From NCBI GenBank assembly GCA_030037705.1, contig JASHQE010000247.1, positions 54,326-118,325 on the forward strand: a DNA stretch of 64,000 bases. Direction: 5' to 3'. Below, piece after piece: positions 17,531 through 39,780 of this stretch. Under the pieces are notes generated by a model. That model was given only the letters and a program-made list of their open reading frames with translations, was not told where the DNA came from and searched no databases. A program made the translations under genes and the position numbers. The first letter of the stretch is position 1. Every line of letters starts with the position of its first letter. This stretch comes from Acidobacteriaceae bacterium (GTDB lineage Bacteria > Acidobacteriota > Terriglobia > Terriglobales > Acidobacteriaceae).

Positions 17531-18742
17531 TCATCGCGTTGACGGCACACAATCTGCCAATACCTCATCCTTTCCGTTCTCAAGCAAAACGGATTCACCC
17601 ATAGTGTTTGAAGGTGCGAGAAATCGTTCTTGCCCAGATACCCAGACGCGGGCCACGTCAGCATAACCCGAGCATGGATGGAAGGCAGCGAGATCGGCTT
17701 GTTTGCCGATTTCAATGCTGCCTATTTCTTTATCCAGGCCGAGATGCCGCGCTGGATTCAGCGTCAGCATATTGACCGCAGCCGAAGAGGTCATTCCGCT
17801 GTCCATCATACGCAAAACGCAGGCAAGCAGTGATGGAAAGTGATAATCGCTGCAGATGATGTCGACCAGACCCTCGGCCATAGCATCATGACAGGACAGA
17901 TTGCCGCAATGAGAGCCCCCTCGGTAATAGTTAGGCGCGCCCATGCACACCATCATGCCCAGTTCTTTGGCCTTGCGCGCCGCCTCGATGCTGCAAGGCA
18001 TCTCAGCAAGAGTGGCTCCACATGCAAAGGCTTCGATCACATGCTCTACGGTTGTATCATCATGGCTACCTAGAGGAATTCGGCCATTCACGCGAGCTTT
18101 GACCGTCATGCGATTGTTCACCTTGCCAGCTCGCGCAATACGCTCTTCCATACTCTTGCGCGCTTCTTCCATGGTGATGTTCTGCCGATTGACGCGTTGC
18201 TGGAGCAGCGCCTCGATGTCGCGGAACTGGCGCTGGCCGGGTGTATCGTCGTTAAACACAAGATTGGCAATGCTCTTGAGCTCGAGTAGCTGATCAAGGA
18301 TCTCCTCGACCGGCTCAAAGTTTGTGCTCCACCTGACGTGGATCAGATGGTGTGCGCGCAGCGTAGGCATCAATTCTTGGAATTTGCGTGCCAACGTCAG
18401 CCCGTCGCCGCGCCATGAGCCGGCATGACCTTCGCGTTCCTCCGAAATCCTCGCCGCACTACACACAGTGGTAAGCCCGCAGCTGAGGGCGCGCATATCC
18501 ATTACATGAAGAGCGAGTTCGAGAGGGATCTTCGCAGTCGGTCGCGGCGTGATTTCGCGTTCGAGATAGTCGGTATGAATATCGATCACTCCAGGAATCA
18601 GGAATGCTCCCCGCAGGTCAACGCCGTCGGCTACACGGCGCGGCAGAATATCGATGATGCGCTCGCCCTCCACGACAACCGTTCCATCGATTTCCTGATC
18701 CGGACAGACGATACGCGCATTCGTTAATATCGTTTCCTTCAT
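17531..18742 (-). CDS. phnM: PhnM-family amidohydrolase, divergent (lacks two conserved polar residues)
   Basis: IDIHTDYLEREITPRP, TPGQRQF, GSHDDTTVEHV, GAPNYYRGGSHCGNLS, CSDYHFPS; but RWS and NDD replace RxE and MDH. Confidence 0.85.
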   Translation of the reverse strand: MKETILTNARIVCPDQEIDGTVVVEGERIIDILPRRVADGVDLRGAFLIPGVIDIHTDYLEREITPRPTAKIPLELALHVMDMRALSCGLTTVCSAARISEEREGHAGSWRGDGLTLARKFQELMPTLRAHHLIHVRWSTNFEPVEEILDQLLELKSIANLVFNDDTPGQRQFRDIEALLQQRVNRQNITMEEARKSMEERIARAGKVNNRMTVKARVNGRIPLGSHDDTTVEHVIEAFACGATLAEMPCSIEAARKAKELGMMVCMGAPNYYRGGSHCGNLSCHDAMAEGLVDIICSDYHFPSLLACVLRMMDSGMTSSAAVNMLTLNPARHLGLDKEIGSIEIGKQADLAAFHPCSGYADVARVWVSGQERFLAPSNTMGESVLLENGKDEVLADCVPSTR

Positions 18743-18771: not shown

Positions 18772-19593
18772 TTATTTCGTCAGCATTGGCTGGGTAATGA
18801 TTGTTCGGCGTATCCAGTCAGAGATACGCTCCATCACGGTAATCATCACAACGATAAGCACGGTGTATAAGAGCACGTCTTTGAAGTGAAGCAAACCTTT
18901 GGCGACCTCAAGCTGGAAGCCAATACCACCACCCCCAAAGACGCCTAGCGGAACAGCGATTCGCAAGTTTTGATCGAAGGCATAGAACAGATTTGCAACA
19001 AACGAAGGCATTACCTGTGGCAGTACGGCATAGCGAATGGTTTGCAGCCGCGTGCTCCCGACGCTTTGAACCGACTCAAGGATGCCTTTTTCGGCGTGTT
19101 CGATTGAATCTGCAAAAAACTTCCCAAACATTCCCACGGAACTAAGGATCAGAGACAGCATTCCGGCAAAAGGTCCGATCCCAATCGCGATCAGCAACAC
19201 CAGAATGACGATCAGATGCGGGGCGGAACGACTCATAGCCAGTAGGGTCCGCGTCGACAGCCGCACCAGGGGATAAGGCGTGGTATTAGACGCAGCAAAG
19301 AATGCCAGAAGCAACGCGAGCGCTCCTCCGAAGGCCGTCGCCAGAAATGCAATTGATAAGGTTTCGACGAGTGAGATGAGAACCGAATCGTCCTTCCATA
19401 GCAAGGTGAAGTTCGGCGGCAGCATCTGGTTCAAAAGGTCGGCCAGGAACCGAAAGTCCACAAAGAAGCTGTCGGGGTTCACATCCAGGAACACAAAGAG
19501 CAAATATGTCCCTGCGATGATTGCAATCAGGAAAATGATCGTCCGGTGGAGTTTACGCGAGGGCAGCACCGCGGCTGGCACAGCGATGCTCAT
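18772..19593 (-). CDS. phnE: Phosphonate ABC transporter permease PhnE
   Basis: Multi-TM with EAA-like region; adjacent to phnC/phnD; Phn permease pattern (GIGPFAGMLSLILSSVGMFGKFFADSIE). Confidence 0.9.
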   Translation of the reverse strand: MSIAVPAAVLPSRKLHRTIIFLIAIIAGTYLLFVFLDVNPDSFFVDFRFLADLLNQMLPPNFTLLWKDDSVLISLVETLSIAFLATAFGGALALLLAFFAASNTTPYPLVRLSTRTLLAMSRSAPHLIVILVLLIAIGIGPFAGMLSLILSSVGMFGKFFADSIEHAEKGILESVQSVGSTRLQTIRYAVLPQVMPSFVANLFYAFDQNLRIAVPLGVFGGGGIGFQLEVAKGLLHFKDVLLYTVLIVVMITVMERISDWIRRTIITQPMLTK

Positions 19594-20429
19594 CGCAACG
19601 CCCCCTCGCGCAAAATACGCTCACGCAGAAAGTCGGAGACACGCTCGGTGCAGAAGACCAGAACGAGCGTAACAAGCGTGGCCATGCAGGCGGATCGATA
19701 ATCGGCCGCATCCATGTAGGTCTTCATCATGTACCCGATGCCGCCCGCGCCGACCGCGCCCAGCAGAATGCCCTCACGCACATTGAAGTCGAAACGAAAG
19801 AGCCCGTTGGCAAGCAGCGCGGGAAGAATCTGTGGAATGACGGCGTAGCGGATGACCTGCGAACGGGTCGCTCCAGTTCCTTCCACTGCCTCAAGCATGC
19901 GCGGCTCGATCTCTTCGATCGTGTCGGCGAGCAGCCTGGCCAGCATGCCCACACTGCCAAAGCAGAGCGCGATAAAGCCAGGAATCACGCCCAATCCAAA
20001 GATCGGGACAAAAAGAAGCATCTGAACAATTTCAGGCAGGCCGCGCTCCGTCGCAATGATGGCTCGCATGCCTAAACGCAGCGGCGGAGGCGTAAGGTTC
20101 GAAGAGGCAAGCAGCGCACAGGGAAGCGAGAGAAACATGCCCAAGATCGTGGCCGCCATTGCAATCGCCGTGGTCACGCCGACCGGGCGCAACAAACTGC
20201 CGAGGGCGCTCCAGTCGGGAGGGAAGAACATTCCCAGCAATGCAGGCAGCTTCTCCATGCCAGTGACGAACACTTTAAGGCTGACTCCACAGCGCCATGA
20301 AGTGAACGCGATGAGCGCAATGAGCAGGGCGATGATGACGGCTTGTCGGCCGCGCTGTCCCGCGATGCCTTTCTTCCACTCCAGAAACGGCAGTTCCCGT
20401 TGAAAGGGGATAGTGGTGGAGACACCCAT
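19590..20429 (-). CDS. phnE: Phosphonate ABC transporter permease PhnE (second)
   Basis: RGLPEIVQMLLFVPIFGLGVIPGFIALCFGSVGMLARLLADTIEEIEPRMLEAVEGTGATRSQVIRYAVIPQILP. Confidence 0.9.
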   Translation of the reverse strand: MGVSTTIPFQRELPFLEWKKGIAGQRGRQAVIIALLIALIAFTSWRCGVSLKVFVTGMEKLPALLGMFFPPDWSALGSLLRPVGVTTAIAMAATILGMFLSLPCALLASSNLTPPPLRLGMRAIIATERGLPEIVQMLLFVPIFGLGVIPGFIALCFGSVGMLARLLADTIEEIEPRMLEAVEGTGATRSQVIRYAVIPQILPALLANGLFRFDFNVREGILLGAVGAGGIGYMMKTYMDAADYRSACMATLVTLVLVFCTERVSDFLRERILREGALR

Positions 20430-21269
20430 TTAAATCGGAGCTCCCTGATGAAGTGCATGATGCAACTTGGGCTCGAAGAGAAATGGCTGTCCGTCTATCG
20501 GCGAATCAGAACCGGCGGTTTCACCCATTGCGCCGCCATAGATGGTTTCCAGTTGACGGGCAGAAATCCGTGCCGAGCCGTCGTAGACTTTCTTGCCTGT
20601 TCGAATGCCGATCACTCGCGTGCAGTAGCGAGCGACGATTTCGGGCTGATGAAACGCACCGATTACAGGTGTTTCGCGCGATAGCGGCTGCAGGATTGTC
20701 ATAATCGCTTCAGCATTTTTAGGATCGAGGCTGGAGATGGGCTCGTCGGCCAGGTAGACGAGCGGACGTTGATAGATGGCGCGTGCAATCGAAACCCGCT
20801 GCATCTCGCCGCCACTGAGTGAACCCGCAAGGCGAGCCGCGAAATCCGCCATTTTCACACGGTCCAGCGCAACCATCGCATCCCGCGCTTCTGAGTCCTT
20901 GAAGCCGAGCAGCCAACTCCGCACTGGACTGATTTGGCCCAGACGTCCGAGCATCACGTTCTCCAGAACTGTGAGGCGCTTTACCAGATTAGAGCCCTGG
21001 AAGATCAAGCCGATGTGCCGCCTGGCTTTGCGTAGCTCACTCACGCTGACATGCGTTGTGCAATAAACCCGATTGGACGGCCCAGTGAGCGTGACCTCAC
21101 CCTCGTTTGGCTGCGTCAATCCCACGATGCATCGCAGCGTGAGAGACTTGCCGGCCCCGCTCGATCCAAGTATCGATACGAACTCACCGCGACCGACGGA
21201 GAAGCTTACGTCATTGACGAGACGCTTTCCGTTCGGAAGCATGACGCGGATATTAGAAACCTGAAGCAT
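20430..21269 (-). CDS. phnC: Phosphonate ABC transporter ATP-binding protein
   Basis: Walker A GSSGAGKS, signature LSGGEMQRVSIARAI, Walker B LADEPISSLDP. Confidence 0.92.
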   Translation of the reverse strand: MLQVSNIRVMLPNGKRLVNDVSFSVGRGEFVSILGSSGAGKSLTLRCIVGLTQPNEGEVTLTGPSNRVYCTTHVSVSELRKARRHIGLIFQGSNLVKRLTVLENVMLGRLGQISPVRSWLLGFKDSEARDAMVALDRVKMADFAARLAGSLSGGEMQRVSIARAIYQRPLVYLADEPISSLDPKNAEAIMTILQPLSRETPVIGAFHQPEIVARYCTRVIGIRTGKKVYDGSARISARQLETIYGGAMGETAGSDSPIDGQPFLFEPKLHHALHQGAPI

Positions 21270-21275
21270 GGCAGT

Positions 21276-22208
21276 CTATTTCTCCACGAAATTGAAGTCC
21301 TTCACCTGCAGTGCGTATTTGCGCAGGCCGTCATAGGTCGCATCGTTCACAGCAATGTTTTTCGTCGCGGTTCCAAAGGTGCTGTAGGTTTTCTGTAAAT
21401 TGTCCCAAAGCGCCGGATCTTTGACAGGAATCTCCAGCAATGCAGCCTGAATTCGTTTCTTCAACTCCTCAGACAGCGATTTGCGCACAGCGGTCGGTCC
21501 ATCTGGTATCAGCTCGGAAGTCCAGATCACGCGCACATCGCCCGGCTCCAGCCTGTGTGTGGCAATCAACCGGTTCGGCGCTGTCTCCATGAAGGCGCTG
21601 GCATCTACTTTGTTCTCTTTAAGCGTCATGACTGCCGCAGGGTGAGTACCGGCAAAGACCACTTTTTTGAAATCTTTTTCGGGCTCGATTCCAGCGGAAA
21701 GAAGTCCGACACGGGGGTACAAATTCCCTGAAGTAGATGCAGGATCTGCAAAGGCAAACACTATATCTTGAGCGTGCGCCTTTAAGTCAGCCAGTGAATG
21801 ATAGGGGCTGTCCTTGGGAACGGCGATTACCGAGCGGTAGCCACCCAGCGATCCGTCAGCGTTGCCGCGCGAGACGATCGCCTCAGCGCCGGCCTTCTGG
21901 GATGCGATGATATAGGCCAGCGATCCAAAGGAAGCGATGTCCACTTTTTCCGCGCGCATGGCTTCGATGGTTGGCGCATATCCTTCCACGCGCACAACTT
22001 CGACCGGCATATTGAGCTCTTTCTGGAGATATGCGCGCATCAGGTCAGCGCGCATCGAGCCACTCTGCAACTGCTCAGATTGCGGCGAGAACGCGTAATG
22101 CAAAACTCTCGGTACGCCGCTGCTGGCGTCGACCGATTTACAACCGGTCAACGCCGGAACCAGCCACGTTGAGAAAAATAAAGCGCACCAACACCAGTGG
22201 CGTTTCAT
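21276..22208 (-). CDS. phnD: Phosphate/phosphonate-binding lipoprotein PhnD
   Basis: Lipobox LTGC; EGYAPTIEAMRAEKVDIASFGSLAYIIA, FADPASTSGNLYPRVGLLSAGIEPEKDFKKVVFAGTH: PhnD family. Confidence 0.92.
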   Translation of the reverse strand: MKRHWCWCALFFSTWLVPALTGCKSVDASSGVPRVLHYAFSPQSEQLQSGSMRADLMRAYLQKELNMPVEVVRVEGYAPTIEAMRAEKVDIASFGSLAYIIASQKAGAEAIVSRGNADGSLGGYRSVIAVPKDSPYHSLADLKAHAQDIVFAFADPASTSGNLYPRVGLLSAGIEPEKDFKKVVFAGTHPAAVMTLKENKVDASAFMETAPNRLIATHRLEPGDVRVIWTSELIPDGPTAVRKSLSEELKKRIQAALLEIPVKDPALWDNLQKTYSTFGTATKNIAVNDATYDGLRKYALQVKDFNFVEK

Positions 22209-22217
22209 AACTCCTCG

Positions 22218-22931
22218 CTACGCGTAGACAACTTCCTTGAGACGACCGTTTTCGAGATGAAGCGATCGGTCTGCCATTCTCGTCAACGTATGCTCATCGT
22301 GGGTGATGAGGATGATCGACGTACCATTCCGCTTGAGGTCGAGTAACATGTCGATTACGGCATCTTTTGTCTTCATGTCGAGTGAGGCAGTGGGTTCATC
22401 TACAAGCAAAAGCCGCGGACGCGCAATCATGGCGCGCGCAATGTTTACGCGCTGCTGTTCGCCGCCGCTGAAGGTCGCTGGATAAGCGTCCCACAGATCC
22501 TTAGGCAAGCTCAGTCGCTCCAAAATTTCGCTGGTAATGCGCCGTGCCTCATCAACCGAGCGTCCTCGGGCTGTAAGTGCAGAAGCAACTACATCGATAG
22601 CTGGCACGCGCGGAATCACCTGCAGGAATTGCGAGCAGTATGTCATCTCCTTCTTGCGAATGCGCAGAACTTCGTGCTCAGAGGCGCTCGTCAGATCGAG
22701 AATCCCGCCTGATTCTTCGTAATATTGAATTTGGCCTCTGCTCGCGAGATAGGTGCGATAGATGCATTTCATCAATGTCGATTTTCCGGAGCCGGTTTTG
22801 CCCGTGAGTCCAACAATCTCGCCCTCTTCAACATTGAAGGAGACCTGGCGCAATGCCTCGATTGCTTTTTCGTTGAGAATGTGGAGTTCGAATCGCTTCT
22901 CCAGATCCACGACTTCCAGTAGCTTCGTCAT
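22218..22931 (-). CDS. phnL: C-P lyase system ATPase PhnL
   Basis: GLTGKTGSGKSTLMKCIYRTYLASRGQI, FLQVIPRVPAIDVVA, SGGEQQRVNIARAMI, DEPTASLD. Confidence 0.93.
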   Translation of the reverse strand: MTKLLEVVDLEKRFELHILNEKAIEALRQVSFNVEEGEIVGLTGKTGSGKSTLMKCIYRTYLASRGQIQYYEESGGILDLTSASEHEVLRIRKKEMTYCSQFLQVIPRVPAIDVVASALTARGRSVDEARRITSEILERLSLPKDLWDAYPATFSGGEQQRVNIARAMIARPRLLLVDEPTASLDMKTKDAVIDMLLDLKRNGTSIILITHDEHTLTRMADRSLHLENGRLKEVVYA

Positions 22932-22976: not shown

Positions 22977-23816
22977 TCAGAGCAACGAGCTCACCAGGAG
23001 CTGCGTATACCCATGTTGGGGATCCTGCAAAATCTGATCCGTCAGTCCGTGCTCTACAATCTGACCGTGCTTTAATACAATAGTGCGATCCGTCAACATG
23101 CGGATCACGCCAAGATCGTGCGAGACAACGATCATGGAAATTCCGAGCTCGTCCTGCAATCTGCGGATCAGGTCGAGAACCTTGGCCTGCACAGAAACAT
23201 CGAGACCGCTAGTCACCTCGTCAAGCAGGAGCAACGGTGGATTGTTCGCAATCGCCTTCGCAATCTGAACTCTCTGCTGCATACCACCGCTGAATCGCAC
23301 GGGCGATTCATCCATGCGCTTGATGGGAACCTCTGTGTGATTGAGCAGCTCGGTAGCGCGAATGCGGATATTGCCCACATGAAATACGCCGGCCATGAGA
23401 AGTTTTTCTGCAATATTGCCGCCCGAGGAGAAACGGAAGTTCAACCCGTCGCGCGGATTCTGATAAACCATGCCCATCAGATGATTGCGAATGTAGCGCT
23501 TCTTTTGGCTGGAAAGCTCGAACAAATTTACGCTACCGTCTTCGATGGGCCTGAAATTTACCTCGCCTGAGGTCGGATCGGAATCGAAGTAGAGCATCTG
23601 CACTAACGTGCTCTTTCCTGAGCCGCTTTCGCCTACGATACCAAGCACCTCGCCCGGATACAGATCGAAACTGATGTTGCTACAGGCAACAACAGCCCCC
23701 GTCTTCGGACAGATATTCGAGTTGAACTGCGGACCGGTCCGGTCGCAGACATCAGGTGTTACTTCGCCGAAGATTTTGGTCAAATTGCGAACGCGCAGTA
23801 ACCACTTTTCATCCAT
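22977..23816 (-). CDS. phnK: C-P lyase system ATPase PhnK with Cys-containing N-terminal insert
   Basis: SFDLYPGEVLGIVGESGSGKSTL, VYQNPRDGLNFRFSSGGNIAEKL, FSGGMQQRVQIAKAI, DEVTSGLDVSVQAKVLDL; insert VCDRTGPQFNSNICPKTGAVVAC. Confidence 0.93.
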   Translation of the reverse strand: MDEKWLLRVRNLTKIFGEVTPDVCDRTGPQFNSNICPKTGAVVACSNISFDLYPGEVLGIVGESGSGKSTLVQMLYFDSDPTSGEVNFRPIEDGSVNLFELSSQKKRYIRNHLMGMVYQNPRDGLNFRFSSGGNIAEKLLMAGVFHVGNIRIRATELLNHTEVPIKRMDESPVRFSGGMQQRVQIAKAIANNPPLLLLDEVTSGLDVSVQAKVLDLIRRLQDELGISMIVVSHDLGVIRMLTDRTIVLKHGQIVEHGLTDQILQDPQHGYTQLLVSSLL

Positions 23817-23831
23817 GGCACATCTCGAGTC

Positions 23832-24716
23832 CTATTCGGGATTTGTAAAGAGTCTTTGTGACGGACGCGGACCTTGCCGCACCTTATCAAGGAAGTTGCT
23901 ATCGTTGATGACCCAGAAGCGGCTGAAGTCCTCGGCGTAGATCTGATCCATGAAGGCCTTGTCCTGCCCTGAAGCCGAGCAGTGGACTCCAATAAACTCT
24001 TCCACCTTGAAACGGATATCGTCGAACTCGAGAGGTTCGACCCGCGTGAAAGGTGGAATCGCGTGAATACGCTTCTCGCGTCCTGCACCGAAAAGATAGA
24101 GGCAGCGGGCCATGCTCAGGTTGGGTACGTCCCAGCTCGGAATCGGCGAAGGTGTGGCGACATAGCGTCCGTTCACCAGAATTGGATGCCCAGCTCCATT
24201 GCGAAGTGTGCCACTGCGCACATAGGCTTCATACAGCGTTACCCAAATCTTCGCGTAATCGGCCTCGGCGTGCATGATCCGCGTCTTTGCCTCATGGCGT
24301 TCGACGCGGCGCAACACCTCAGGCTGCGGCACCTGCAGAACTAAAATCTGTTTCTCCGTCAGGATCTCTTCAGGAACACGATGGCGGCTCTGAATAATGG
24401 TCGCGGCCGCTGTATCGAAGGTGACCGCGCACTTTGCCATCTCCTTGATGAAAAGGCGTAGATTGCATGCGTTTACGCTCGCGTCGCTTCCCTGGTCGAT
24501 CACCTTCACCGTATCGTCTGGTCCAACCAGCGAGAGCGTCAGGTGCAGGCCACCCGTCCCCCAGCCGCGCGAAATAGGCATCTCCGGTGAGGCATAGGGA
24601 ACCTGGTAACCGGGAATGCAGACAGCCTTCAACGTCTTGCGACGAATCTCTTTTTTTGTGAACTCGTCAATGTAGGCGTAATTAAAGCTCTCTTGAAATC
24701 TGAGGTTCTCAATCAT
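23832..24716 (-). CDS. phnJ: PhnJ-family protein lacking three of four radical-SAM/C-P lyase cysteines
   Basis: FNYAYIDEFTKKEIRRKTLKAVCIPGYQVPYASPEMP..GWGTGGLHLT..VIDQGSDASVNA..RHRVPEEILTE..FQVP.PE.LR..E..E..TR.MHA..DY..VNGRYV..PSPIP..DVP.....LFGAGREKRI.A.PPFTRVE.L.FDD; C-terminus EEFIGVHCSASGQDKAFMDQIYAEDFSRFWVINDSNFLD. Confidence 0.93.
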   Translation of the reverse strand: MIENLRFQESFNYAYIDEFTKKEIRRKTLKAVCIPGYQVPYASPEMPISRGWGTGGLHLTLSLVGPDDTVKVIDQGSDASVNACNLRLFIKEMAKCAVTFDTAAATIIQSRHRVPEEILTEKQILVLQVPQPEVLRRVERHEAKTRIMHAEADYAKIWVTLYEAYVRSGTLRNGAGHPILVNGRYVATPSPIPSWDVPNLSMARCLYLFGAGREKRIHAIPPFTRVEPLEFDDIRFKVEEFIGVHCSASGQDKAFMDQIYAEDFSRFWVINDSNFLDKVRQGPRPSQRLFTNPE

Positions 24717-25875
24717 TGCCACCCTCCCCGGCGCCCGCACCCACGGCAACTTCTTTGCTGCGCTCCTGCTTCAATCGTGCAACCCGTCGCGCGCTCTCCA
24801 GGCCAGCTTGGAAGGTAACGTAGTGAGGCAGCTTGAGATGGTTGGTGAACCCGTAGGCCTCGATAACTTCCGTGTGATAGAGGACGAACTCCTGATTGTT
24901 GGCAGGGTTGTCGGGATTTGGACTGCGTAGCGCACTCTCGACCATACCCATGCAAATTCCCTTCGTCTCGTTTTGACCAAAGCAAAGCCCGTAGCCGATC
25001 GAAAGGGCTGCTCCCTCGCTGCGCTTCCCTCCTTGCCTCGCAGCGTCAGGCGATCGGCGCATCGAGCCACCGACCATCTCTGTCTCGGTGACCTTGATCT
25101 TGCCCACATAGCGTGTCCGTCCGCGCCTGTCAACGATCCGCACCGGAACCTCGCCGACGCGCAGCTCGCCCACTGTGCCATGCGATTCGCCGAACCCGCG
25201 CATAGTGCTGTATGCCATGCACATCAATGCGCCAGTCTCAGACCGGGCCAGCATCTGCAACACCGCCGAGCGAGGCACAGGAAATTTGATTGCCTCTCGT
25301 GTTACATCAAAAACACGCCGATCTTCATCAGGATTACCCTGCCTGCTCATTAAGCCTTCGTTCAAAAAAATGTCGATCACTTTCTTATATGTGGTCATCG
25401 CATGCAGCTTGCAGGGATCAATTGCATCGCGCAATCCCTCGATAAATTTTTCAATGGAACCAAGACTGGCTTGCAGCAGCGCAGGATTGAGCAGTCGAAA
25501 CGAGTAGTCGCGCGTTGGTCCAAGGATCTGACCTCCAGGTATCTCGCGGAAGGTTGATGAGATTCGCCGGTGCACAAACATCTCGCGCGTATTCAGCACC
25601 TCGGCAAAATAGCGGCGCTCCAGCGTGGCGCGATAAGCGCGTAGATGAAACGCGGCTTCAAATGAGTCACCCTCCACCTGCAGCAACGCCAATGCCGCGT
25701 GTGCAGGCGCATAGAGCGAGCCCTCGCCCATTGCGCGATCCACGGCCAGCCGCATCTGCGTGCGCGCCTGATCTACTTTGATGGGTTCCGTCTTGCCCTT
25801 CCAGCGGAAATAGTCCACCAGCCTGTTGGCGTTCTCGATTGCGTCCTGCCCGCCCTTGACCGCTACGTATCCCAT
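24709..25875 (-). CDS. phnI: PhnI (C-P lyase core complex, nucleosidase-like subunit)
   Basis: MGYVAVKGGQDAIENA..., GYGLCFGQNETKGICMGMVE, FVLYHTEVIEAYGFTNHLKLPHYVTFQAGL (zinc-site histidines retained). Confidence 0.93.
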   Translation of the reverse strand: MGYVAVKGGQDAIENANRLVDYFRWKGKTEPIKVDQARTQMRLAVDRAMGEGSLYAPAHAALALLQVEGDSFEAAFHLRAYRATLERRYFAEVLNTREMFVHRRISSTFREIPGGQILGPTRDYSFRLLNPALLQASLGSIEKFIEGLRDAIDPCKLHAMTTYKKVIDIFLNEGLMSRQGNPDEDRRVFDVTREAIKFPVPRSAVLQMLARSETGALMCMAYSTMRGFGESHGTVGELRVGEVPVRIVDRRGRTRYVGKIKVTETEMVGGSMRRSPDAARQGGKRSEGAALSIGYGLCFGQNETKGICMGMVESALRSPNPDNPANNQEFVLYHTEVIEAYGFTNHLKLPHYVTFQAGLESARRVARLKQERSKEVAVGAGAGEGGND

Positions 25876-25899
25876 CTCGCCCCCATCCCGGTTTGAACG

Positions 25900-26535
25900 T
25901 TACGACCACTCGGAGACCGGTTCCCATTTGACACGCGTCGTGCGCGGCAAAGCCATCACGCATGGACCGGCCGATAAACTGTCACAGGTGAAAAAAGAGT
26001 CCACACCCAATGGAAACTCGACATTGCGTTTCTGCAAAGCTTCAAAAAGCTCCACCGGTGCGCCTGACACAAAGACTGCTGCTTCGCTCTCGATCCCAGG
26101 GCCGGCTAATGTCAACCGCAAGCTGTCCGGCATAGGCGCCGGAGAAAGTGCCGCCACCTGCACGACGAGCGTCGCGCCCTGTTCCGGATAAGCCAGATTA
26201 CCTGTCCGTGCACGGTCGATCTCTTCAAACCGGCGCGCATCCGCGATCAATACAAAATCTGCTTGCTCTGCCGTCGCAGGTTTCGCCAGTGTTTCACGGC
26301 ACAGCAAATCCATGGCCTGCTCTGCGCTCTGCTCCAAATGAAATGAGCTGTCAGCGCTCATGAGAGTGAGGGCTATGAGTGTTGTGGCCCGGTTCAACGG
26401 TGCGGGAACCTCCATCAACACATCATCAAGCTGTCCAATCATGCCGGGCCGCGCGGTGCACTGCAGTAAAGTCCGATAGTGCTTCTGGCCGTCAAAGATT
26501 TGATCATAGGATTTGGCCATCGCCAGCGCACTCAT
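25900..26535 (-). CDS. phnH: PhnH (C-P lyase core complex subunit)
   Basis: YDQIFDGQKHYRTLLQCTARPGMIGQL; NLAYPEQGATLVVQV; operon position between phnG and phnI. Confidence 0.88.
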   Translation of the reverse strand: MSALAMAKSYDQIFDGQKHYRTLLQCTARPGMIGQLDDVLMEVPAPLNRATTLIALTLMSADSSFHLEQSAEQAMDLLCRETLAKPATAEQADFVLIADARRFEEIDRARTGNLAYPEQGATLVVQVAALSPAPMPDSLRLTLAGPGIESEAAVFVSGAPVELFEALQKRNVEFPLGVDSFFTCDSLSAGPCVMALPRTTRVKWEPVSEWS

Positions 26536-27026
26536 GCTTCCTCCATCAACTTGAAATCGACCTGTGTCTGGAGAATCAGGTCGAACTCGTCTTGATCCCG
26601 ACGCGCGACTATCTTGCTCTGTTCGCCGAGAAACGTCTCAACTTTGTCCGGAATTGCATTGCCAGAATGAAGCAGCGCATCTACAACAGCGATGGAATAG
26701 GCCCGAACCGGCTCATCTCCGAGGCAAAGTCCAAACCCTGGGTGACCGTCCACCAACACTTCGCATTCTGTGGTCAATGCCTCACCGAGATAGAATTTTT
26801 GCTGTTCGAGAGAATCTTCGGCCGGGATCATCGTGAGGCACACGGAAGGGTGTTTGCGAATCGATACCGTATAGAGTTGCTCCAACTGGGCGACCAGCAG
26901 TTTCAGGGGCTCCAATTCACACTCGCATAGCGTATAGTCGGAGCCTAGCTCAGCCGTGCTTAAATTTCGATGATTTGTCACGTCAACCATTTGCCGGGTT
27001 TGCCTTTCGCACGACAGAAGTAGCAT
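26532..27026 (-). CDS. phnG: PhnG (C-P lyase core complex subunit), divergent
   Basis: FYLGEALTTECEVLVDGHPGFGLCLGDEPVRAYSIAVVDALLH; first gene of phnGHIJKL order; overlaps phnH start. Confidence 0.8.
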   Translation of the reverse strand: MLLLSCERQTRQMVDVTNHRNLSTAELGSDYTLCECELEPLKLLVAQLEQLYTVSIRKHPSVCLTMIPAEDSLEQQKFYLGEALTTECEVLVDGHPGFGLCLGDEPVRAYSIAVVDALLHSGNAIPDKVETFLGEQSKIVARRDQDEFDLILQTQVDFKLMEEA

Positions 27027-27099: not shown

Positions 27100-27233
27100 C
27101 TTGTGGCAATCATGCCATAGGAAATTTTGAGAAATATTTAAAAGACGTGAAAAATGCATTTATATCTCAGAACCAATCTCGGCATTCATGCACGGCTCAC
27201 CACCCCATAAACTGAAATTTCATGTTCATATTA

Positions 27234-27245
27234 TTCGTATACGTA
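27234..27245 (+). promoter_or_regulatory. Candidate operator TTCGTATACGTA upstream of ABC exporter operon
   Basis: Direct reading; 5 bp upstream of ATG at 27251. Confidence 0.5.
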
Positions 27246-27250
27246 GTATT

Positions 27251-29077
27251 ATGGCTTTCGTGCGACAGGATGCCGCCAACCGATTCCTGCAGGACGAGGC
27301 CATCGTCCCGCTGCAAATTCGATCGAGATTCGTCTGGAATTACTTGAAGGCCTATCCGCGCCTGCTGATTCTCGGCGTTATCTGTCTCATTGGCCGTAAC
27401 GGAGTGGCGTTCGCAATTCCTCTGCTGATTCGCGCTGGAATCAACATTCTGACTTCTTCTCGGGGTAGCGCCGACACAGCCATGTCGTGGATTGCCATCG
27501 AGATTGTCGGCGTGGCTACCCTCAGTTCGGCTTTTCAAACTATGGCCCGTTTGAATGTCATCGGCATGTCGCGACACGTCGAGTATGAGATGCGGAAGGA
27601 TTTTCTCCGGCACCTGTTCCGGCTCGATGCTTCCTTCTGGGGACGAACGCGAACCGGTGACATCATGGCGTTGGCGACAAACGATCTTAATGCCGTCCGC
27701 ATGATGCTCGGCCCCGGCCTGATTTCCTTCTTTGAGGCCATGGTTCAACTTCCCGTTGCCGTCGTGGTCTTGGCCTCTTTTAACTGGCGGCTTACGCTCG
27801 CAGCATTGTTGCCTTCACCTTTGGCGGTGCTGGTGATGATCGTGTTCGGCAGGATTATTCGCCGGCGATTCGATCGAATTCAGGCACTGTTTTCCACAAT
27901 GAGTGCGGTTGTCCAGCAGACCATCGCAGGCGCTCGCGTTGTGCGCTCCTTCGTGCGCGAGAAGGCGGAGCAGAATCGCTTCGAGGAGATGAACCGCTCC
28001 TATGTTCGAGCAAACTGCATCCTGGGCGTCTACTCCAGTACCTTCGATCCTTTGCTGACTTTTATTACTGGCGCCTCTGTGCTTGTCGTTCTCTGGTACG
28101 GAGGATCGCTCGCGGTTGCGCATAAATTGCGCGTAGGCGATTTCGTGATGTTCACGACCTACATGGCTATGCTTGCACAGCCCATCTCCTCGCTAGGCAG
28201 AGTAGTCAATATGATGCAGCGCGGCATGGCCTCCGTGGCGCGTCTGCAACTGCTTTTCCTTGAATCTCCAGAGATTGAACCGGGAAATTGGCTTCATTCA
28301 GATGAAAACCCTCCCGAAACCGATCTCACATCGAGCGGCGCCATCTCTCTGCAAAATGTCAGCGTGTTTTACGGTTCATATGCCGCGTTGGATTCGATTG
28401 ACCTGAAAATCCCGGCTGGATCAACTCTGGCGATTTTGGGTGAGACCGGATCCGGCAAAAGCACTTTGGTCAAACTGATCACACGTATGATTGACCCAAG
28501 CCAGGGAAGCATCCAGGTCGACGGGGTCGACTGCCGCGCAATTCCATTGACTGCGCTGCGCTCGCTTGTCGGAGCTGTTCCTCAGGAAACGTTCCTGTTC
28601 AGCATCACACTTGCAGAAAACATTGCGCTGGGCGTCGATGCCGTATCAGAAAGCGAAATCAGGGGGGCAGCGACCATTGCCGGGCTCGATCCAGATTTGG
28701 AAGCTTTGCCTGAAGGCCTCAATACCATTGTCGGCGAACGAGGCATCATGCTCTCAGGAGGGCAAAAGCAGCGCATCGCCATCGCCCGCGCGGTCCTCAA
28801 GAATCCTCGCATCCTGGTACTGGATGACGCTTTGTCCAGCGTAGATTCTGTCACCGAGGAACGCATTCTTTGCCATCTCAAGAGCATCATGGCCGAGCGC
28901 ACCACAATCCTAGTGACACACCGAGTCACAACCGCGATGCACGCGGATTACATCATTGTTCTGAAGCATGGGCGGATTGTTGAAGAAGGCACCCACTCGA
29001 GTCTTGTAGCGAAGTGCGGACGTTACGCGCGTCTGGCGCGCCTGCAGGTTCTTGAAGAAGAATTGGAGGCCTTGTGA
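27251..29077 (+). CDS. ABC transporter, fused TMD-NBD half transporter (MdlA-like); degenerate Walker-B catalytic residue (LDDALSSVD)
   Basis: GETGSGKSTLVKL, LSGGQKQRIAIARA, LVLDDALSSVDS, six TM helices. ATG at 27251 preferred over 27188. Confidence 0.88.
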   Translation: MAFVRQDAANRFLQDEAIVPLQIRSRFVWNYLKAYPRLLILGVICLIGRNGVAFAIPLLIRAGINILTSSRGSADTAMSWIAIEIVGVATLSSAFQTMARLNVIGMSRHVEYEMRKDFLRHLFRLDASFWGRTRTGDIMALATNDLNAVRMMLGPGLISFFEAMVQLPVAVVVLASFNWRLTLAALLPSPLAVLVMIVFGRIIRRRFDRIQALFSTMSAVVQQTIAGARVVRSFVREKAEQNRFEEMNRSYVRANCILGVYSSTFDPLLTFITGASVLVVLWYGGSLAVAHKLRVGDFVMFTTYMAMLAQPISSLGRVVNMMQRGMASVARLQLLFLESPEIEPGNWLHSDENPPETDLTSSGAISLQNVSVFYGSYAALDSIDLKIPAGSTLAILGETGSGKSTLVKLITRMIDPSQGSIQVDGVDCRAIPLTALRSLVGAVPQETFLFSITLAENIALGVDAVSESEIRGAATIAGLDPDLEALPEGLNTIVGERGIMLSGGQKQRIAIARAVLKNPRILVLDDALSSVDSVTEERILCHLKSIMAERTTILVTHRVTTAMHADYIIVLKHGRIVEEGTHSSLVAKCGRYARLARLQVLEEELEAL

Positions 29078-31008
29078 GCACAATGGGATTTGGGTTGTAC
29101 GGCGGCGGCAGCCGAGGCCAATCCGGCGGAGCCAATCTGGAGGAGATCTCCGCCAAGGTTCGCGACTGGTATCTTCTCTCGCGGCTTCTGAAGTTGTTGC
29201 TGCCTTATTGGACCGGCATGTCGGCATCGCTCTTGTGCTCGCTCGCATCCACTTTATTGCAAGTTATCAATCCGCTGATTATATCGACAGCCATCGACTT
29301 TTATTTCCTGAAGCGCACACCCAAAGTGGAGTTTTTATCCGGACTGCTTCCGGCAAAATCCGCGCAGGGAATTGCATTGCTTTCGCTCCTGTATGGCGGC
29401 GGACTCATTTTGATCCTGTTAATTGATAGCGCGCAGAATTATCTCGCTCAGTGGACTGGCCAGATGGCAATGGCCGAGCTTCGCAGGCGGCTGTTCCAAC
29501 ATCTGCACCGGCTCCCGATCAGTTTTTACGATGTAACTCCTGCCGGCCGTCTGGTTACTCGCGTTACAACGGACATCGAGGCGCTGAACGATCTCTTTGC
29601 AAACGGAGTGGTCGCGCTGCTCGCTAATCTCGTTACCACGTTCTTCTTTCTCGGGATTCTGTTCTGGCTGAACTGGCGCATGACGCTGGTGCTCGCTGCG
29701 GTCATTCCGGTTTTTGTCGCACTCACCGCTTACTTTCGCCGGCTGATCACGCGCAGCCAGCAAAAAGTTCGCGTGCTTCTGGCAAGAATCAATGCATTTA
29801 TCGCCGAGCACTCGAATGGCATCTACGTCGTGCACCTCTTCAATCGTCAGCAGACCACGCTCGATGCTTTCGATACGATCAACCGCGAGTACATGGTAGC
29901 GTCAAAGGAGTGGGTCACTGCCAATGCGTGGTTTATGCCCTCAATCGGGTTGCTGGGTACAGTTTCTCAGGCGGGACTTCTTATCATCGGCACTTTTCTA
30001 CTTCATGGCGGAAGTTTATCTGTCGGCACGTTGGTCGCCTTCCTGATGTGGGGACCGCGCTACTTGCGCCCAATCCAGGACATCAGCGAACGCTACAGTG
30101 TATTGCAGACCAGTATTGTTTCCGCTGAAAAGGTCTTCGCTTTGCTCGACACGGAAGCGCCACTTGAAACTGCGGGATGCGGCCGCGCCAGTCTTGAAGG
30201 CCATGATATCGCGTTCGAAAATGTGTGGTTCGCCTATAAACCAGGACGCTGGGTGCTCAACGACGTCAGCTTTCATATTCGCAAGGGAGAGATGCTAGCG
30301 ATCGTTGGTCACACCGGCGCGGGTAAGACCACATTGACCAATCTCCTTCTGCGCTTTTATCGCCCTCAGCGCGGCTCCATCCGCATTGGCGGAGTCGACA
30401 TTTGGGACATGGAGGCCGCTGATTTGCGGCGGCAATTCGGCGTTGTTCTTCAAGACACCTACGTTCGCGAAGGAACAGTCCTTGACAACATCCGCTTTGG
30501 TTCCGATGTATTGACCCATGAGGATGCGCTGCACGCAGCCCGCCAGATAGGCCTCGACACAATCATGAAAGACCTTCCCGATGGACTGGAAACCTGGGTG
30601 CAAGAACGAGGCGACAATCTCTCTGCCGGGCAGAAACAGCTGATCGCATTTGCCCGTGCGCTGGCGCACGATCCTGACTATCTGTTGCTTGATGAGGCAA
30701 CGTCAAACATCGATCTCGAAACGGAGGCGAGGCTTCGAGCCGCAATGGGCAGGCTGCTCGAAGGCCGTACCTCCATTGTTATCGCACACCGTCTCTCGAC
30801 TGTGCTCACGGCCGATCGGATTATCGTCATGCACAGGGGCAAGCTGGCCGAAATAGGCAGCCATGAAAAGCTATTAGCAAAACGGGGGCTTTATTGGCGC
30901 CTCTTTCAGATACAGTTTGGTCATCAGGCTGGATTCGAAGAGCCGCTGGCGCCAAACGGTTCACATGAAACTGCCGGCAATGGTTATGTCTGGCAGGAAA
31001 CACAATAG
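29074..31008 (+). CDS. ABC transporter, fused TMD-NBD half transporter (MdlB-like), canonical Walker B
   Basis: GHTGAGKTTLTNLLLRFY, LSAGQKQLIAFARAL, LLLDEATSNIDLETE; overlaps previous gene (GTGAGC/ATG coupling). Confidence 0.88.
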   Translation: MSTMGFGLYGGGSRGQSGGANLEEISAKVRDWYLLSRLLKLLLPYWTGMSASLLCSLASTLLQVINPLIISTAIDFYFLKRTPKVEFLSGLLPAKSAQGIALLSLLYGGGLILILLIDSAQNYLAQWTGQMAMAELRRRLFQHLHRLPISFYDVTPAGRLVTRVTTDIEALNDLFANGVVALLANLVTTFFFLGILFWLNWRMTLVLAAVIPVFVALTAYFRRLITRSQQKVRVLLARINAFIAEHSNGIYVVHLFNRQQTTLDAFDTINREYMVASKEWVTANAWFMPSIGLLGTVSQAGLLIIGTFLLHGGSLSVGTLVAFLMWGPRYLRPIQDISERYSVLQTSIVSAEKVFALLDTEAPLETAGCGRASLEGHDIAFENVWFAYKPGRWVLNDVSFHIRKGEMLAIVGHTGAGKTTLTNLLLRFYRPQRGSIRIGGVDIWDMEAADLRRQFGVVLQDTYVREGTVLDNIRFGSDVLTHEDALHAARQIGLDTIMKDLPDGLETWVQERGDNLSAGQKQLIAFARALAHDPDYLLLDEATSNIDLETEARLRAAMGRLLEGRTSIVIAHRLSTVLTADRIIVMHRGKLAEIGSHEKLLAKRGLYWRLFQIQFGHQAGFEEPLAPNGSHETAGNGYVWQETQ

Positions 31009-31038
31009 TTGCAGTCACTTTTTCCGGAAGACAGAAAT

Positions 31039-31752
31039 ATGTCAGTACTCAATGGGAACACGCCGCGGTACGGGATTTATTTTTCTCCGCATCCCGGCTC
31101 TTTGTTGTATGAGCTCGGCACCCGTTGGCTCGGCCGCGATGCCATCACTGGAGAATCGCTTGAGCCTGGTCTGCCCGATCACCTGCATCAGGATGAGTGG
31201 CTGCGTGTGACAGAGAGCCCTCGCCGCTATGGATTTCATGCAACACTTAAACCTCCTTTCCGGCTCGCGGAAAACCTCCAATTAGAGGACCTGCAAACAG
31301 CGCTCCATGACTTTGCCGCAAAGCATGATCGCTTTGAGGCTCCGGCTCTAAAAATCGGATCCCTTGGGCATTTCCTTGCGCTTGCGCTTTCAGAACGCAG
31401 CGCCATATTTTCTCAGCTCGCAGCCGATTGCGTGACTGAACTCGATAAGTTTCGCGCACCCGCTACAGAAGAAGAACGAATCAAGCGCCTTCGCGATTCG
31501 CTTTCAGAGCGGGAACGGGAACACGTAATGCGATGGGGCTATCCGTATGTTCTCGATACCTGGAAGTTTCATATGTCGCTCACGGGATCGCTTCCTGTGT
31601 CCTCACTTCCACCTCTTGAAGAGCATCTGCAGAATCGGTTCGCACAAGTGCTTCATCGGCCCCTATTGGTTGATTCCGTTTGTATCTTTCACGAGCCCTA
31701 TCCCGGTGGTCCATTTCGCATCGTCGAACGGGCCCAGTTGAGGTCGTTGTGA
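31039..31752 (+). CDS. DUF1045 family protein (phosphonate-operon 2H phosphoesterase-like)
   Basis: RYGIYFSPHPGSLLYELGTRWLGRDA...RRYGFHATLKPPFRL...WGYPYVLDTWKFHMSLTG; two HxT/HxS motifs as in DUF1045/TIGR03223. Confidence 0.85.
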   Translation: MSVLNGNTPRYGIYFSPHPGSLLYELGTRWLGRDAITGESLEPGLPDHLHQDEWLRVTESPRRYGFHATLKPPFRLAENLQLEDLQTALHDFAAKHDRFEAPALKIGSLGHFLALALSERSAIFSQLAADCVTELDKFRAPATEEERIKRLRDSLSEREREHVMRWGYPYVLDTWKFHMSLTGSLPVSSLPPLEEHLQNRFAQVLHRPLLVDSVCIFHEPYPGGPFRIVERAQLRSL

Positions 31753-33161
31753 TGACGATGTCAATGATGACTGAAAATCCTTGGAAGCCTTGCGATCTTC
31801 GTGGAACCTATCCGGAGGCTGTTTCACACGCCCTTTTTCACGATATTGGCAGCGCCATCGGCACGATGCTTGCACCTCAATCGCGTGTAGTTGTGGCGGG
31901 CGACTTCCGGCTTAGTACGCCGGACTTGAAGCATGCTCTTTCTGATGGCTTGGTTCATGCTGGCATTCACGTTCTCGATGCGGGCCAATGCCCTACACCG
32001 CTCGCTTACTTTACCGCACAACAATTAGGCGCTGCTGCTGTGCTCATCGTTACAGCTTCGCATAATCCCGCTGCGCAGAATGGGCTCAAGCTAATGCTGG
32101 AATCCATGCCGACGACTCCACAGCAGTTGTCGGAGATCCGGGCGCTGGTGGAATCGGGGGCGTTTCGCTCCGGGCACGGCAAGATTGAGACGGTCGATTT
32201 GTTCCCGATTTATATGCGGACGACGTTGCAACGATGGGCACATCTGCATGGTGGCAAGCCCTGCCGAGTGGTTCTCGACGCCGGCAATGGTGCGTGGTCC
32301 GAGTTGGGTCCGATGATTTTCAAACAGCTTGGCTTTGACGCTGTCTGTATCTCGTGCGTTGCGGACGGAAACTTTCCGGACCGCTCTCCCGACTGTGCGC
32401 AAGCCGCAAATCTTGCCAGACTGTCTACTGCTGTGCGTGAGTGGCCGGATTCGATCGGCATTGCATGGGATGGCGATGGTGACCGCGTGGCTTTCATTGA
32501 TGAGACTGGAAGCTATGTCACGACCGATGAGATTGCAATTCTATTCGCAGAGGCCATGCTCACGGGCAGCGCATCCAAAGGGAATGCAGATGCGAAGATC
32601 GTTGTTGACGTGAAATGCTCTGATGTCGTGCGGCGCTCGATTCTCCGACAAAGCGGAACTCCCCTGCTGGAACGCACCGGCCATGCTTTCATGCGCGGCA
32701 GGATGGTTGCGGAGCAGGCGCTTCTCGGCCTTGATGCCTGCGGCCATTATTTCTTTCACGAATTGAACGGCGGCGATGACGGGCTTTTTTCCGCTTTTTA
32801 TCTCCTCAACTTTATGCAAAGCCGCGGCGGTTCTCTTGCGCAATTGCGCAGCACGCTACCGCGTATCTTGAGCACTCCGGAGATCCGTATTCCCGCCGTG
32901 CAGTTGCCTTGGGCAAAAGCGGCGGCGGCGTTGTGCTCCGCATTTCCTCACGCGAGCGTTATGGAGATTGATGGCCTTCGCCTGGTTATGGACGACGGCA
33001 TCGTTCTTGTGCGGGAGTCTGGCACGGAGCCGGTCATCTCGCTGCGCATGGAGGGCTTCGATGAAATGAGTTATGAACGGATCCTTGCCCGGTCTCTGCA
33101 ATGCTTGCCCGAGGCAGCATCCGTAATTCATCACGAATTGCTGAAAACAGGCGCAGAGTAA
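31752..33161 (+). CDS. Phosphohexomutase family protein (phosphomannomutase/phosphoglucomutase-like)
   Basis: VVVAGDFRLSTPDLKHAL, IVTASHNPAAQNGLKLM (catalytic Ser loop), GIAWDGDGDRVAFID (metal loop), GEL-like sugar loop HELNGGDDG. Confidence 0.88.
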   Translation: MTMSMMTENPWKPCDLRGTYPEAVSHALFHDIGSAIGTMLAPQSRVVVAGDFRLSTPDLKHALSDGLVHAGIHVLDAGQCPTPLAYFTAQQLGAAAVLIVTASHNPAAQNGLKLMLESMPTTPQQLSEIRALVESGAFRSGHGKIETVDLFPIYMRTTLQRWAHLHGGKPCRVVLDAGNGAWSELGPMIFKQLGFDAVCISCVADGNFPDRSPDCAQAANLARLSTAVREWPDSIGIAWDGDGDRVAFIDETGSYVTTDEIAILFAEAMLTGSASKGNADAKIVVDVKCSDVVRRSILRQSGTPLLERTGHAFMRGRMVAEQALLGLDACGHYFFHELNGGDDGLFSAFYLLNFMQSRGGSLAQLRSTLPRILSTPEIRIPAVQLPWAKAAAALCSAFPHASVMEIDGLRLVMDDGIVLVRESGTEPVISLRMEGFDEMSYERILARSLQCLPEAASVIHHELLKTGAE

Positions 33162-33190
33162 ATTCGAAAACAACCCTGGAGGAACAAACG

Positions 33191-33889
33191 ATGGCGACGA
33201 CAACACACGTTGGACTGATGGATACAGCGCCCGATTCGCCAGAGGCGCGGCAAAAACGCCAACCCCTTGGACTCGAACCGCGTATTGACCCCACGGCTCG
33301 CGTCCGCAATTCCGTACTCGGCATCTACACGTCGGTCGGTCCGCACACGACGATCAACGAATCGAATTTCGGCGATTATTCTTACGTCGTGCAAAACTGT
33401 AGCATCATTTGGGCTGATATCGGCAAGTTCTGTTCTATCGCGGCCAGTACCCGAATCAATCCCGGTAATCATCCGATGTGGCGTGCAGCTCTGCATCACT
33501 TTACTTATCGCAGCACGTCTTACGGATTTGACGTCGAAGATGATTCCGAATTCTTTGATTGGCGCAAGGCCCACAGAGTGACGCTAGGAAATGACGTTTG
33601 GATTGGTCATGGCTCGACCATTCTTCCCGGAGTCACAATCGGCACCGGAGCAGGTATCGGCGCTGGCGCAGTAGTTTCAAAAGACGTGCCGCCTTTCGCG
33701 ATTGTCGGCGGCGTGCCCGCTAAACTCATCCGTTTTCGTTTCGACGATAAAGTGCAGGAAGGCCTCATGAACCTTGCATGGTGGGATTGGCCGCGCGAAA
33801 AGCTCGAGATCGCGTTGCCCGATTTCCGCAAGCTCAGCGCAGAAGAGTTTATCGAAAAATATGCAGGAACGACCGCGACCGCCTCTTAG
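33191..33889 (+). CDS. Phosphonate-cluster hexapeptide-repeat transferase (TIGR03308-like)
   Basis: IDPTARVRNSVLGIYTSVGPHTTINESNFGDYSYVVQNCSIIWADIGKFCSIAASTRINPGNHPMWRAALHHFTYRS...GNDVWIGHGSTILPGVTIGTGAGIGAGAVVSKDVPPFAIVGGVPAKLIRFRF. Confidence 0.88.
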   Translation: MATTTHVGLMDTAPDSPEARQKRQPLGLEPRIDPTARVRNSVLGIYTSVGPHTTINESNFGDYSYVVQNCSIIWADIGKFCSIAASTRINPGNHPMWRAALHHFTYRSTSYGFDVEDDSEFFDWRKAHRVTLGNDVWIGHGSTILPGVTIGTGAGIGAGAVVSKDVPPFAIVGGVPAKLIRFRFDDKVQEGLMNLAWWDWPREKLEIALPDFRKLSAEEFIEKYAGTTATAS

Positions 33890-33914: not shown

Positions 33915-34517
33915 TCATACAGCCAATGCATTCAGGTATTCAGCATGAATCTCCTGGGCGCGAAATACACTGAAGAACGGAGCTCCAAGAGCGGCCGACT
34001 CCACTGCGGGTCGGCCGCATGCTTCTTCCCGTTCCACTAAGCAAATGACGCCGATAACGCGCATACCTGCACCTTGTGCCGCGTGAATTGCAGTGATAAG
34101 CGACGCCCCCGTAGTACAGGCATCGTCTACGATCACAACCGGCGCATCTGCCTCGCAAAAGCCTTCAATCTTTCTGCCTGTTCCATGGGTCTTCGCTTCT
34201 TTTCGCACTAGAAATCCGTCGATAACATTCACATTGGATGAAGCGCTCGCACGCCATGCGCTCGCCGATGCAACATTGCTTACGACAGGGTCTGCACCCA
34301 ACGTCAGGCCGCCCACCGCACACGGAGACAGTTGATGTTCACGCATCAGGTCGAGAATCACCAGGCCCGCAAGCCGCCCGCCTCGACCACACAGCGTAGT
34401 TGTACGGCAATCGATATAGTAATTGCTGGAACCACCGGCAGAGAGTCGTGTCTCTTCAAGGTGAAACGATCTTTGCGCCAGTATTTTGCGAAGTGCGGCT
34501 TTATGAGCAGAAACCAT
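33915..34517 (-). CDS. pyrE: Orotate phosphoribosyltransferase-like protein
   Basis: FLVRKEAKTHGTGRKIEG and PRPP-binding VVIVDDACTTGASLITAI motifs of OPRT. Confidence 0.85.
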   Translation of the reverse strand: MVSAHKAALRKILAQRSFHLEETRLSAGGSSNYYIDCRTTTLCGRGGRLAGLVILDLMREHQLSPCAVGGLTLGADPVVSNVASASAWRASASSNVNVIDGFLVRKEAKTHGTGRKIEGFCEADAPVVIVDDACTTGASLITAIHAAQGAGMRVIGVICLVEREEACGRPAVESAALGAPFFSVFRAQEIHAEYLNALAV

Positions 34518-39485: not shown

Positions 39486-39625
39486 TGGGTAGCTCCTTCC
39501 TCGTGAGGATGCTGGATTGCGCCGGTGGACAAGCGAGCGAATTGACAATCGCCTGAGTCTGCTGAGACAGCCATTGAATCCCGTGAACCGGCCACATCCG
39601 CCAGCGATCTGAGCGCGGTTATCCC

Positions 39626-39723
39626 GGACTTTTGAAGACGCGGCCATACATGCGCACCTCGAAAACCGTTTCCGCCTTGGGCTTACATGCGCCGGTTCTT
39701 GTAAAGAGCGATAGCAAAAGTCC
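39626..39723 (-). other. Candidate structured 5' leader of TonB receptor mRNA
   Basis: Perfect 9-bp inverted repeat GGACTTTTG (39626-39634)/CAAAAGTCC (39715-39723) within the ~295-nt leader; two GCGCATGTA copies inside. Confidence 0.3.
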
Positions 39724-39780
39724 AATTGAGCGCAGTGTACGCGGGCAAATGTTGCGATGAGGTAACGGCAAAATGAAAAG

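Follow-up and report, generated by a model that had tools for sequence, protein, structure and literature searches.

The closest described counterpart of the locus presented here is the C-P lyase system of E. coli. In its PhnGHIJKL core complex (PDB 4xb6, 7z15-7z19), PhnJ provides the radical residue Gly32 and a putative Fe4S4 site made of Cys241, Cys244, Cys266 and Cys272, PhnI binds Zn through His328 and His333, and PhnJ His108 touches the bound cyclic phosphate (PMC9947105). The radical glycine lies 30 A from the iron-sulfur site in this complex, and how the chemistry is linked to the zinc site formed with PhnI has yet to be established (PMC9947105). The four cysteines have been used as a confirming feature of PhnJ in a 2025 paper (PMC11978286). 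E. coli PhnM (b4095), finally, is the alpha-D-ribose 1-methylphosphonate 5-triphosphate diphosphatase.

The window, by which we mean the whole analysed stretch of 64,000 nucleotides of Acidobacteriaceae DNA, contains a phn operon (Table 1) with the same six core genes in the same order as in E. coli. Equivalents of PhnI His219, His328 and His333 and of PhnJ Gly32 and His108 are common to both systems, and with the complete phnGHIJKL set and the PhnI zinc histidines the operon qualifies as a C-P lyase system. Unlike in E. coli, however, three of the four cluster cysteines of PhnJ (PMC9947105) are replaced (Cys244 by Ser, Cys266 by Ile and Cys272 by Leu). As such, the protein would be recognised as a C-P lyase component by Gly32 and His108 and would fail to be recognised by the cysteines, of which the Cys241 equivalent alone is kept.

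Table 1. Features of the phn region, in coordinates of the window.
Feature	Position	Strand	Basis
PhnM2, 403 aa, divergent PhnM paralogue, final gene of the phn operon	17531..18742	minus	TIGR02318, NF011984, tree
Asp299 codon, retained	17846..17848	minus	invariant in PhnM2 and canonical PhnM
His227 codon, retained	18062..18064	minus	invariant in PhnM2 and canonical PhnM
Asp166 codon (E. coli His165 position; directly past barrel strand 4)	18245..18247	minus	alignment, model
Ser139 codon (aligned with E. coli Glu138; at the end of barrel strand 3)	18326..18328	minus	alignment, model
His56-Thr57-Asp58 codons, retained (end of barrel strand 1)	18569..18577	minus	conservation
phnE2 (18772-19593) and phnE1 (19590-20429), phosphonate ABC permeases	18772..20429	minus	TIGR01097, above cut-off
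phnC, transporter ATPase	20430..21269	minus	TIGR02315 best match, 234.5 bits (cut-off 266.1)
phnD, binding protein	21276..22208	minus	TIGR01098, above cut-off
phnL, core-complex ATPase	22218..22931	minus	TIGR02324, above cut-off
phnK, core-complex ATPase	22977..23816	minus	TIGR02323 best match, 242.3 bits (cut-off 302.85)
PhnJ, Cys-less variant	23832..24749	minus	PF06007, 390 bits; alignment to E. coli PhnJ
phnI (24709-25875), phnH (25900-26535), phnG (26532-27026)	24709..27026	minus	PF05861, TIGR03292, PF06754
Pair of ABC exporter half-transporters, transcribed divergently to the phn operon	27188..31008	plus	PF00664 and PF00005 (first gene), synteny
DUF1045/TIGR03223 phosphonate metabolism protein	31009..31752	plus	253.1 bits (cut-off 248.95)
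Phosphohexomutase-family protein	31680..33161	plus	PF02878-PF02880, PF00408
TIGR03308 phn-associated hexapeptide transferase	33101..33889	plus	294.6 bits (cut-off 201.65)
PyrE-like phosphoribosyltransferase	33915..34517	minus	PF00156; TIGR00336, 90 bits, under cut-off
PhnM1, canonical PhnM	34629..35774	minus	TIGR02318, 447 bits (cut-off 390.55); NF011984, 507.5 bits (cut-off 260)

The last gene of the operon has an intact reading frame, and its product, termed PhnM2 here, scores 294.5 bits with the equivalog model NF011984, above the cut-off of 260, and 327.3 bits with TIGR02318, below the cut-off of 390.55. A PF01979 match of 58 bits, together with the structure model and Foldseek, places it in the amidohydrolase superfamily (TIM barrel plus beta-sandwich). 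Over 370 aligned residues it is 33% identical to PhnM of E. coli K-12 (NC_000913), which is encoded in an operon of matching type, and both proteins agree in the HTD, SHDD, E-x-P and SDY motifs. The sequence-only reading had described an exchange of Glu by Ser and of His by Asp, and the alignment reproduces motifs, spacing and substitutions exactly: R136-C137-E138-(26)-H165 of E. coli corresponds without gaps to R137-W138-S139-(26)-D166. It agrees just as well with the accompanying statement that the remaining metal-site motifs (HTD, SHDD, SDY) are kept, as H55/D57, H229, E249 and D301 of E. coli are all found again as H56/D58, H227, E247 and D299. PhnM2 thus carries the HxD, SHDD and SDY barrel-mouth motifs by which a PhnM is recognised; it lacks the combination of Glu or Asp at the end of strand 3 with His past strand 4, and differs from E. 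coli PhnM also in belonging to a separate clade with invariant residues of its own.

The suggestion that the PhnM of this cluster had been compromised was incomplete, since a canonical PhnM encoded 16 kb from the PhnM2 gene had been overlooked. TIGR02318 yields two PhnM proteins in the genome of the window, namely PhnM2 (327 bits) and this PhnM1 (447 bits; match at G000:C321:88960-90078, inside the gene listed in Table 1), which carries every canonical motif (DLHTDN, HYRAEI, VMDHTPGQRQ, ASHDDT and ASDYAP). The cluster therefore retains PhnM, and what the operon encodes is a paralogue of it, hence the name PhnM2. Both paralogues share family and genome, but PhnM1 is not the sister of PhnM2 and groups with the PhnM proteins of E. 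coli and Shimia in the tree. A recent duplication of PhnM1 was rejected as the origin of PhnM2 on account of this grouping and of the long stem of PhnM2 (1.24 changes per column).

Among 48 canonical PhnM sequences, the Glu138 position is always occupied by an acidic residue (32 E, 16 D) and the His165 position always by His, and the equivalents of His227, Glu247 and Asp299 are likewise invariant. All ten members of the PhnM2 clade have S or D at the first and D or N at the second position, i.e. Ser+Asp in Acidobacteriaceae and Asp+Asn in Opitutales, with Asp+Asp in one member of the latter. The substitutions go beyond chance (48 canonical PhnM versus 10 PhnM2). However, Asp at the Glu site, found in six of the ten, also occurs in many canonical, mainly actinobacterial, PhnM proteins; it is the replacement of His alone that is clade-wide, and the change at the Glu site is not. 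A carboxylate is present at one of the two altered sites in all ten sequences, a pattern that consists of two lineages plus one variant and hence of few independent events.

Where these two positions reside in the fold can be judged from AlphaFold2 models of PhnM2 (pLDDT 90.1) and of the canonical Shimia PhnM (pLDDT 93.4). In the former, one strand (131-139) ends at S139 and another (158-164) is directly followed by D165-D166, and in the latter E143 and H170 occupy the equivalent places. According to DSSP, the strands concerned are barrel strands 3 and 4; both positions lie at their C-terminal ends and thereby face the catalytic side. This is the barrel face on which the metals of amidohydrolases sit, and it is hence plausible from the models that Ser139 and Asp166 occupy metal-ligand sites. 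The placement at the metal site proposed in the sequence-only reading is consequently borne out as far as the catalytic face and the fixation of both residues in canonical PhnM are concerned, but the strands involved are strands 3 and 4 and not strand 5. A search of the PDB by sequence returned no PhnM structure. Foldseek matched the PhnM2 model to NagA deacetylases, prolidase-like proteins and imidazolonepropionase amidohydrolases (E down to 7e-18, TM about 0.6), which are alike in fold at an identity of about 16%; a profile alignment to E. coli NagA gave E-values of 4e-6 to 5e-5 at 16-22% identity and was gapped through the barrel. Human AMDHD2, a member of the NagA family, functions with a single Zn (PMC8970586).

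Relatives of PhnM2 were gathered via a PhnJ search of genome contigs and by whole-genome searches. The resulting ten sequences, four from Acidobacteriaceae and six from Opitutales, group together in a single clade (support 100/100), and the PhnM1 proteins of Opitutales are placed elsewhere in the PhnM tree, apart from that of the window. In both groups, PhnM2 is the final gene after G-H-I-J-K-L(-D-C-E-E), the operons comprise PhnGHIJKL and PhnM2 together with a transporter in most cases, and PhnM1 is found in the neighbourhood or elsewhere in the genome. Searches of 394 Verrucomicrobiota genomes and of 329 genomes of the window's order gave matches of at least 49% identity solely from genomes with a known PhnM2-type operon; judging from contig numbers and coordinates, one of the entries (G1601) is apparently the same assembly as another (G474). 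A pair of exporter half-transporter genes adjoins the PhnM2-type operon in both phyla (L002, L003, L004, L071, L090, L092), with 74-75% identity within Acidobacteriaceae and 32-37% to Opitutales, and genes resembling TonB-dependent receptors are likewise found close to phn genes in the two phyla (window 35868-39725; L043 767-4255; L089 4267-7404). Nocardia puris (L011:15154) encodes, beside a canonical PhnM, an additional, very divergent PhnM-like protein in which MIETTLRRSR replaces the DHTPGQGQ motif.

All ten PhnM2 proteins agree in the remaining residues of the barrel mouth, and at 15 positions (e.g. W138, N141, N160, V162, M248 and F302) they share a residue that is seldom found in canonical PhnM, where position 162 is Ser and position 248 is Phe in 45 of 45 sequences each. 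Several of these 15 positions flank the altered sites. Pairs of Acidobacteriaceae PhnM2 genes show pN values of 0.12-0.19 and pS values of 0.62-0.75, the comparison being confined to pN versus pS because the synonymous rate was saturated in most cases, and PhnM2 is under purifying selection. Of the corresponding PhnJ values, that for the window and L003 was disregarded as out of frame. The clade, its own invariant residues, the low pN relative to pS and the distribution together argue for remodelling under selection rather than decay, and remodelling also fits better because in the Opitutales proteins the Glu site carries Asp and the His site either Asn or Asp. A sequencing or assembly artefact was rejected, as changes at the same sites occur in ten genomes, including two entries that are 98-99% complete.

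Each of 59 aligned PhnJ sequences either has all four cysteines or lacks Cys244, Cys266 and Cys272 together, and all 59, the Cys-less ones included, have Gly32 and His108. The Cys-less form accounts for 28 of 58 sequences from four phyla and occupies one side of a branch with 95/83 support; its sources are Acidobacteriaceae (including the window), Opitutales, Deinococcota and Anaerolineae (L004-L007, L036-L046, L051-L067). The sequence-only reading had regarded the change in PhnM as a parallel to the loss in PhnJ. This does not hold in general: in 12 of 12 readable Deinococcota and Chloroflexota loci with Cys-less PhnJ, PhnM is canonical and keeps Glu and His, and the loss of the PhnJ cluster therefore does not force a change in PhnM. 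Overall, PhnM2 is best described as a derived paralogue of PhnM that belongs to a putatively cluster-free C-P lyase lineage. In one Opitutales genome (G481; L047 / L072), PhnJ reads through one in-frame TAG, representing either a pseudogene or an assembly error. Opitutales further encode a second PhnI (L089:7486-8700 in G476; L124-L130), and each of its 7 copies has other residues in place of the two zinc histidines (Ser for His328; Ala, Asn, Gly or Ser for His333); in G476 it shares a cluster with the canonical PhnM1 and a PhnN-like gene.

What, then, could be the function of PhnM2? To our mind, the reading that accounts best for these data, with a probability of about 0.5, is that PhnM2 represents a hydrolase with an altered and probably single-metal site that serves the Cys-less PhnGHIJKL complex of Acidobacteriaceae and Opitutales. 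It would be an anciently diverged PhnM paralogue travelling with this complex, and its centre would have kept His56/Asp58, of which both are invariant across all PhnM2 and complete canonical PhnM sequences, as well as His227 and Asp299, with the strand-3/strand-4 pair being rebuilt as Ser+Asp, Asp+Asn or, once, Asp+Asp. PhnI would still join the phosphorus compound to the nucleotide at its conserved zinc site, PhnM1 and/or PhnM2 would trim the nucleotide-coupled compound, and bond cleavage, if there is any in the Cys-less lineage, would not proceed via the SAM/Fe-S route. The substrate of PhnM2 may be a ribosyl 5-triphosphate or a related intermediate delivered by its own complex, and PhnM1, where present, would perform the standard diphosphate release. 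Catalytic activity, metal number and substrate are inferences in this proposal. The combination of Ser139 and Asp166 in Acidobacteriaceae could even abolish metal binding altogether.

PhnM1 accompanies PhnM2 in nine of the ten genomes, although it is split over two reading frames in G481, and PhnM2 therefore need not be a diphosphatase. In line with this, one could imagine that PhnM2 is a neofunctionalised amidohydrolase which does not act on a triphosphate at all and strips the phosphonate or its product of a group, for instance an acyl group, leaving all diphosphate release to PhnM1. The invariant residues beside the altered positions, the hexapeptide transferase gene in the cluster and the deacetylases as nearest solved folds to the model would be consistent with such a role, even though the last point is weak given that any amidohydrolase has these fold neighbours. 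However, one Acidobacteriaceae genome (G412, 99% complete) has GHIJKL and PhnM2 as its sole PhnM; a search of this genome found no PhnM1 and no DUF1045, and no phnCDE is present within the stretch read. PhnM2 must hence provide any PhnM step in this organism, and we regard the neofunctionalised enzyme as a serious but clearly less probable alternative. The G412 operon region (L043 5991-14473) adjoins genes for a PhnW-like aminotransferase (L043 5991-7190, assigned by inspection of the sequence alone) and a ketopantoate-reductase-like protein. With regard to the substrate class, a phosphonate transporter and the PhnW-like aminotransferase gene near the G412 operon point to phosphonates.

Somewhat less probable still is that PhnM2 has lost catalysis and serves the Cys-less complex as a scaffold or as a regulatory subunit. 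Both canonical positions are altered in Acidobacteriaceae and an intact paralogue is present in the genome, which speaks for such a role, but the invariance of the other barrel-mouth residues in all ten sequences would be unusual for a dead enzyme, and G412 has no further PhnM. That the operon is simply decaying, with PhnM2 and PhnJ on their way to pseudogenes, is very improbable: ligand-type residues are indeed gone from two proteins of one operon, but the reading frames are intact with the PhnJ of G481 as the single exception, related changes affect the same sites in ten genomes from two phyla, pN is low versus pS, and PhnJ Gly32/His108 and the PhnI zinc histidines are retained.

Beyond the role as an altered-metal-site hydrolase that we favour for PhnM2, a more far-reaching and so far tentative scenario can be envisaged. 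In the four phyla, there may exist a C-P lyase-like lineage devoid of the [4Fe-4S]/SAM radical machinery that would cleave P-C (or other P-X) bonds at the PhnI/PhnJ zinc site, and to which Acidobacteriaceae and Opitutales would have recruited a re-metalled PhnM2 with a new role. In the open-access papers searched, neither a Cys-less PhnJ nor a PhnM changed in this way was found to be reported, and novelty is provisional to that extent. Surveys of metagenomes are likely to tally such genes as ordinary C-P lyase and consequently as a source of methane. Complexes that have Gly32, His108 and the zinc histidines, lack the cluster cysteines and are accompanied by a PhnM altered at its putative metal site would offer a direct genetic and structural way to find out what in the textbook C-P lyase mechanism is required.
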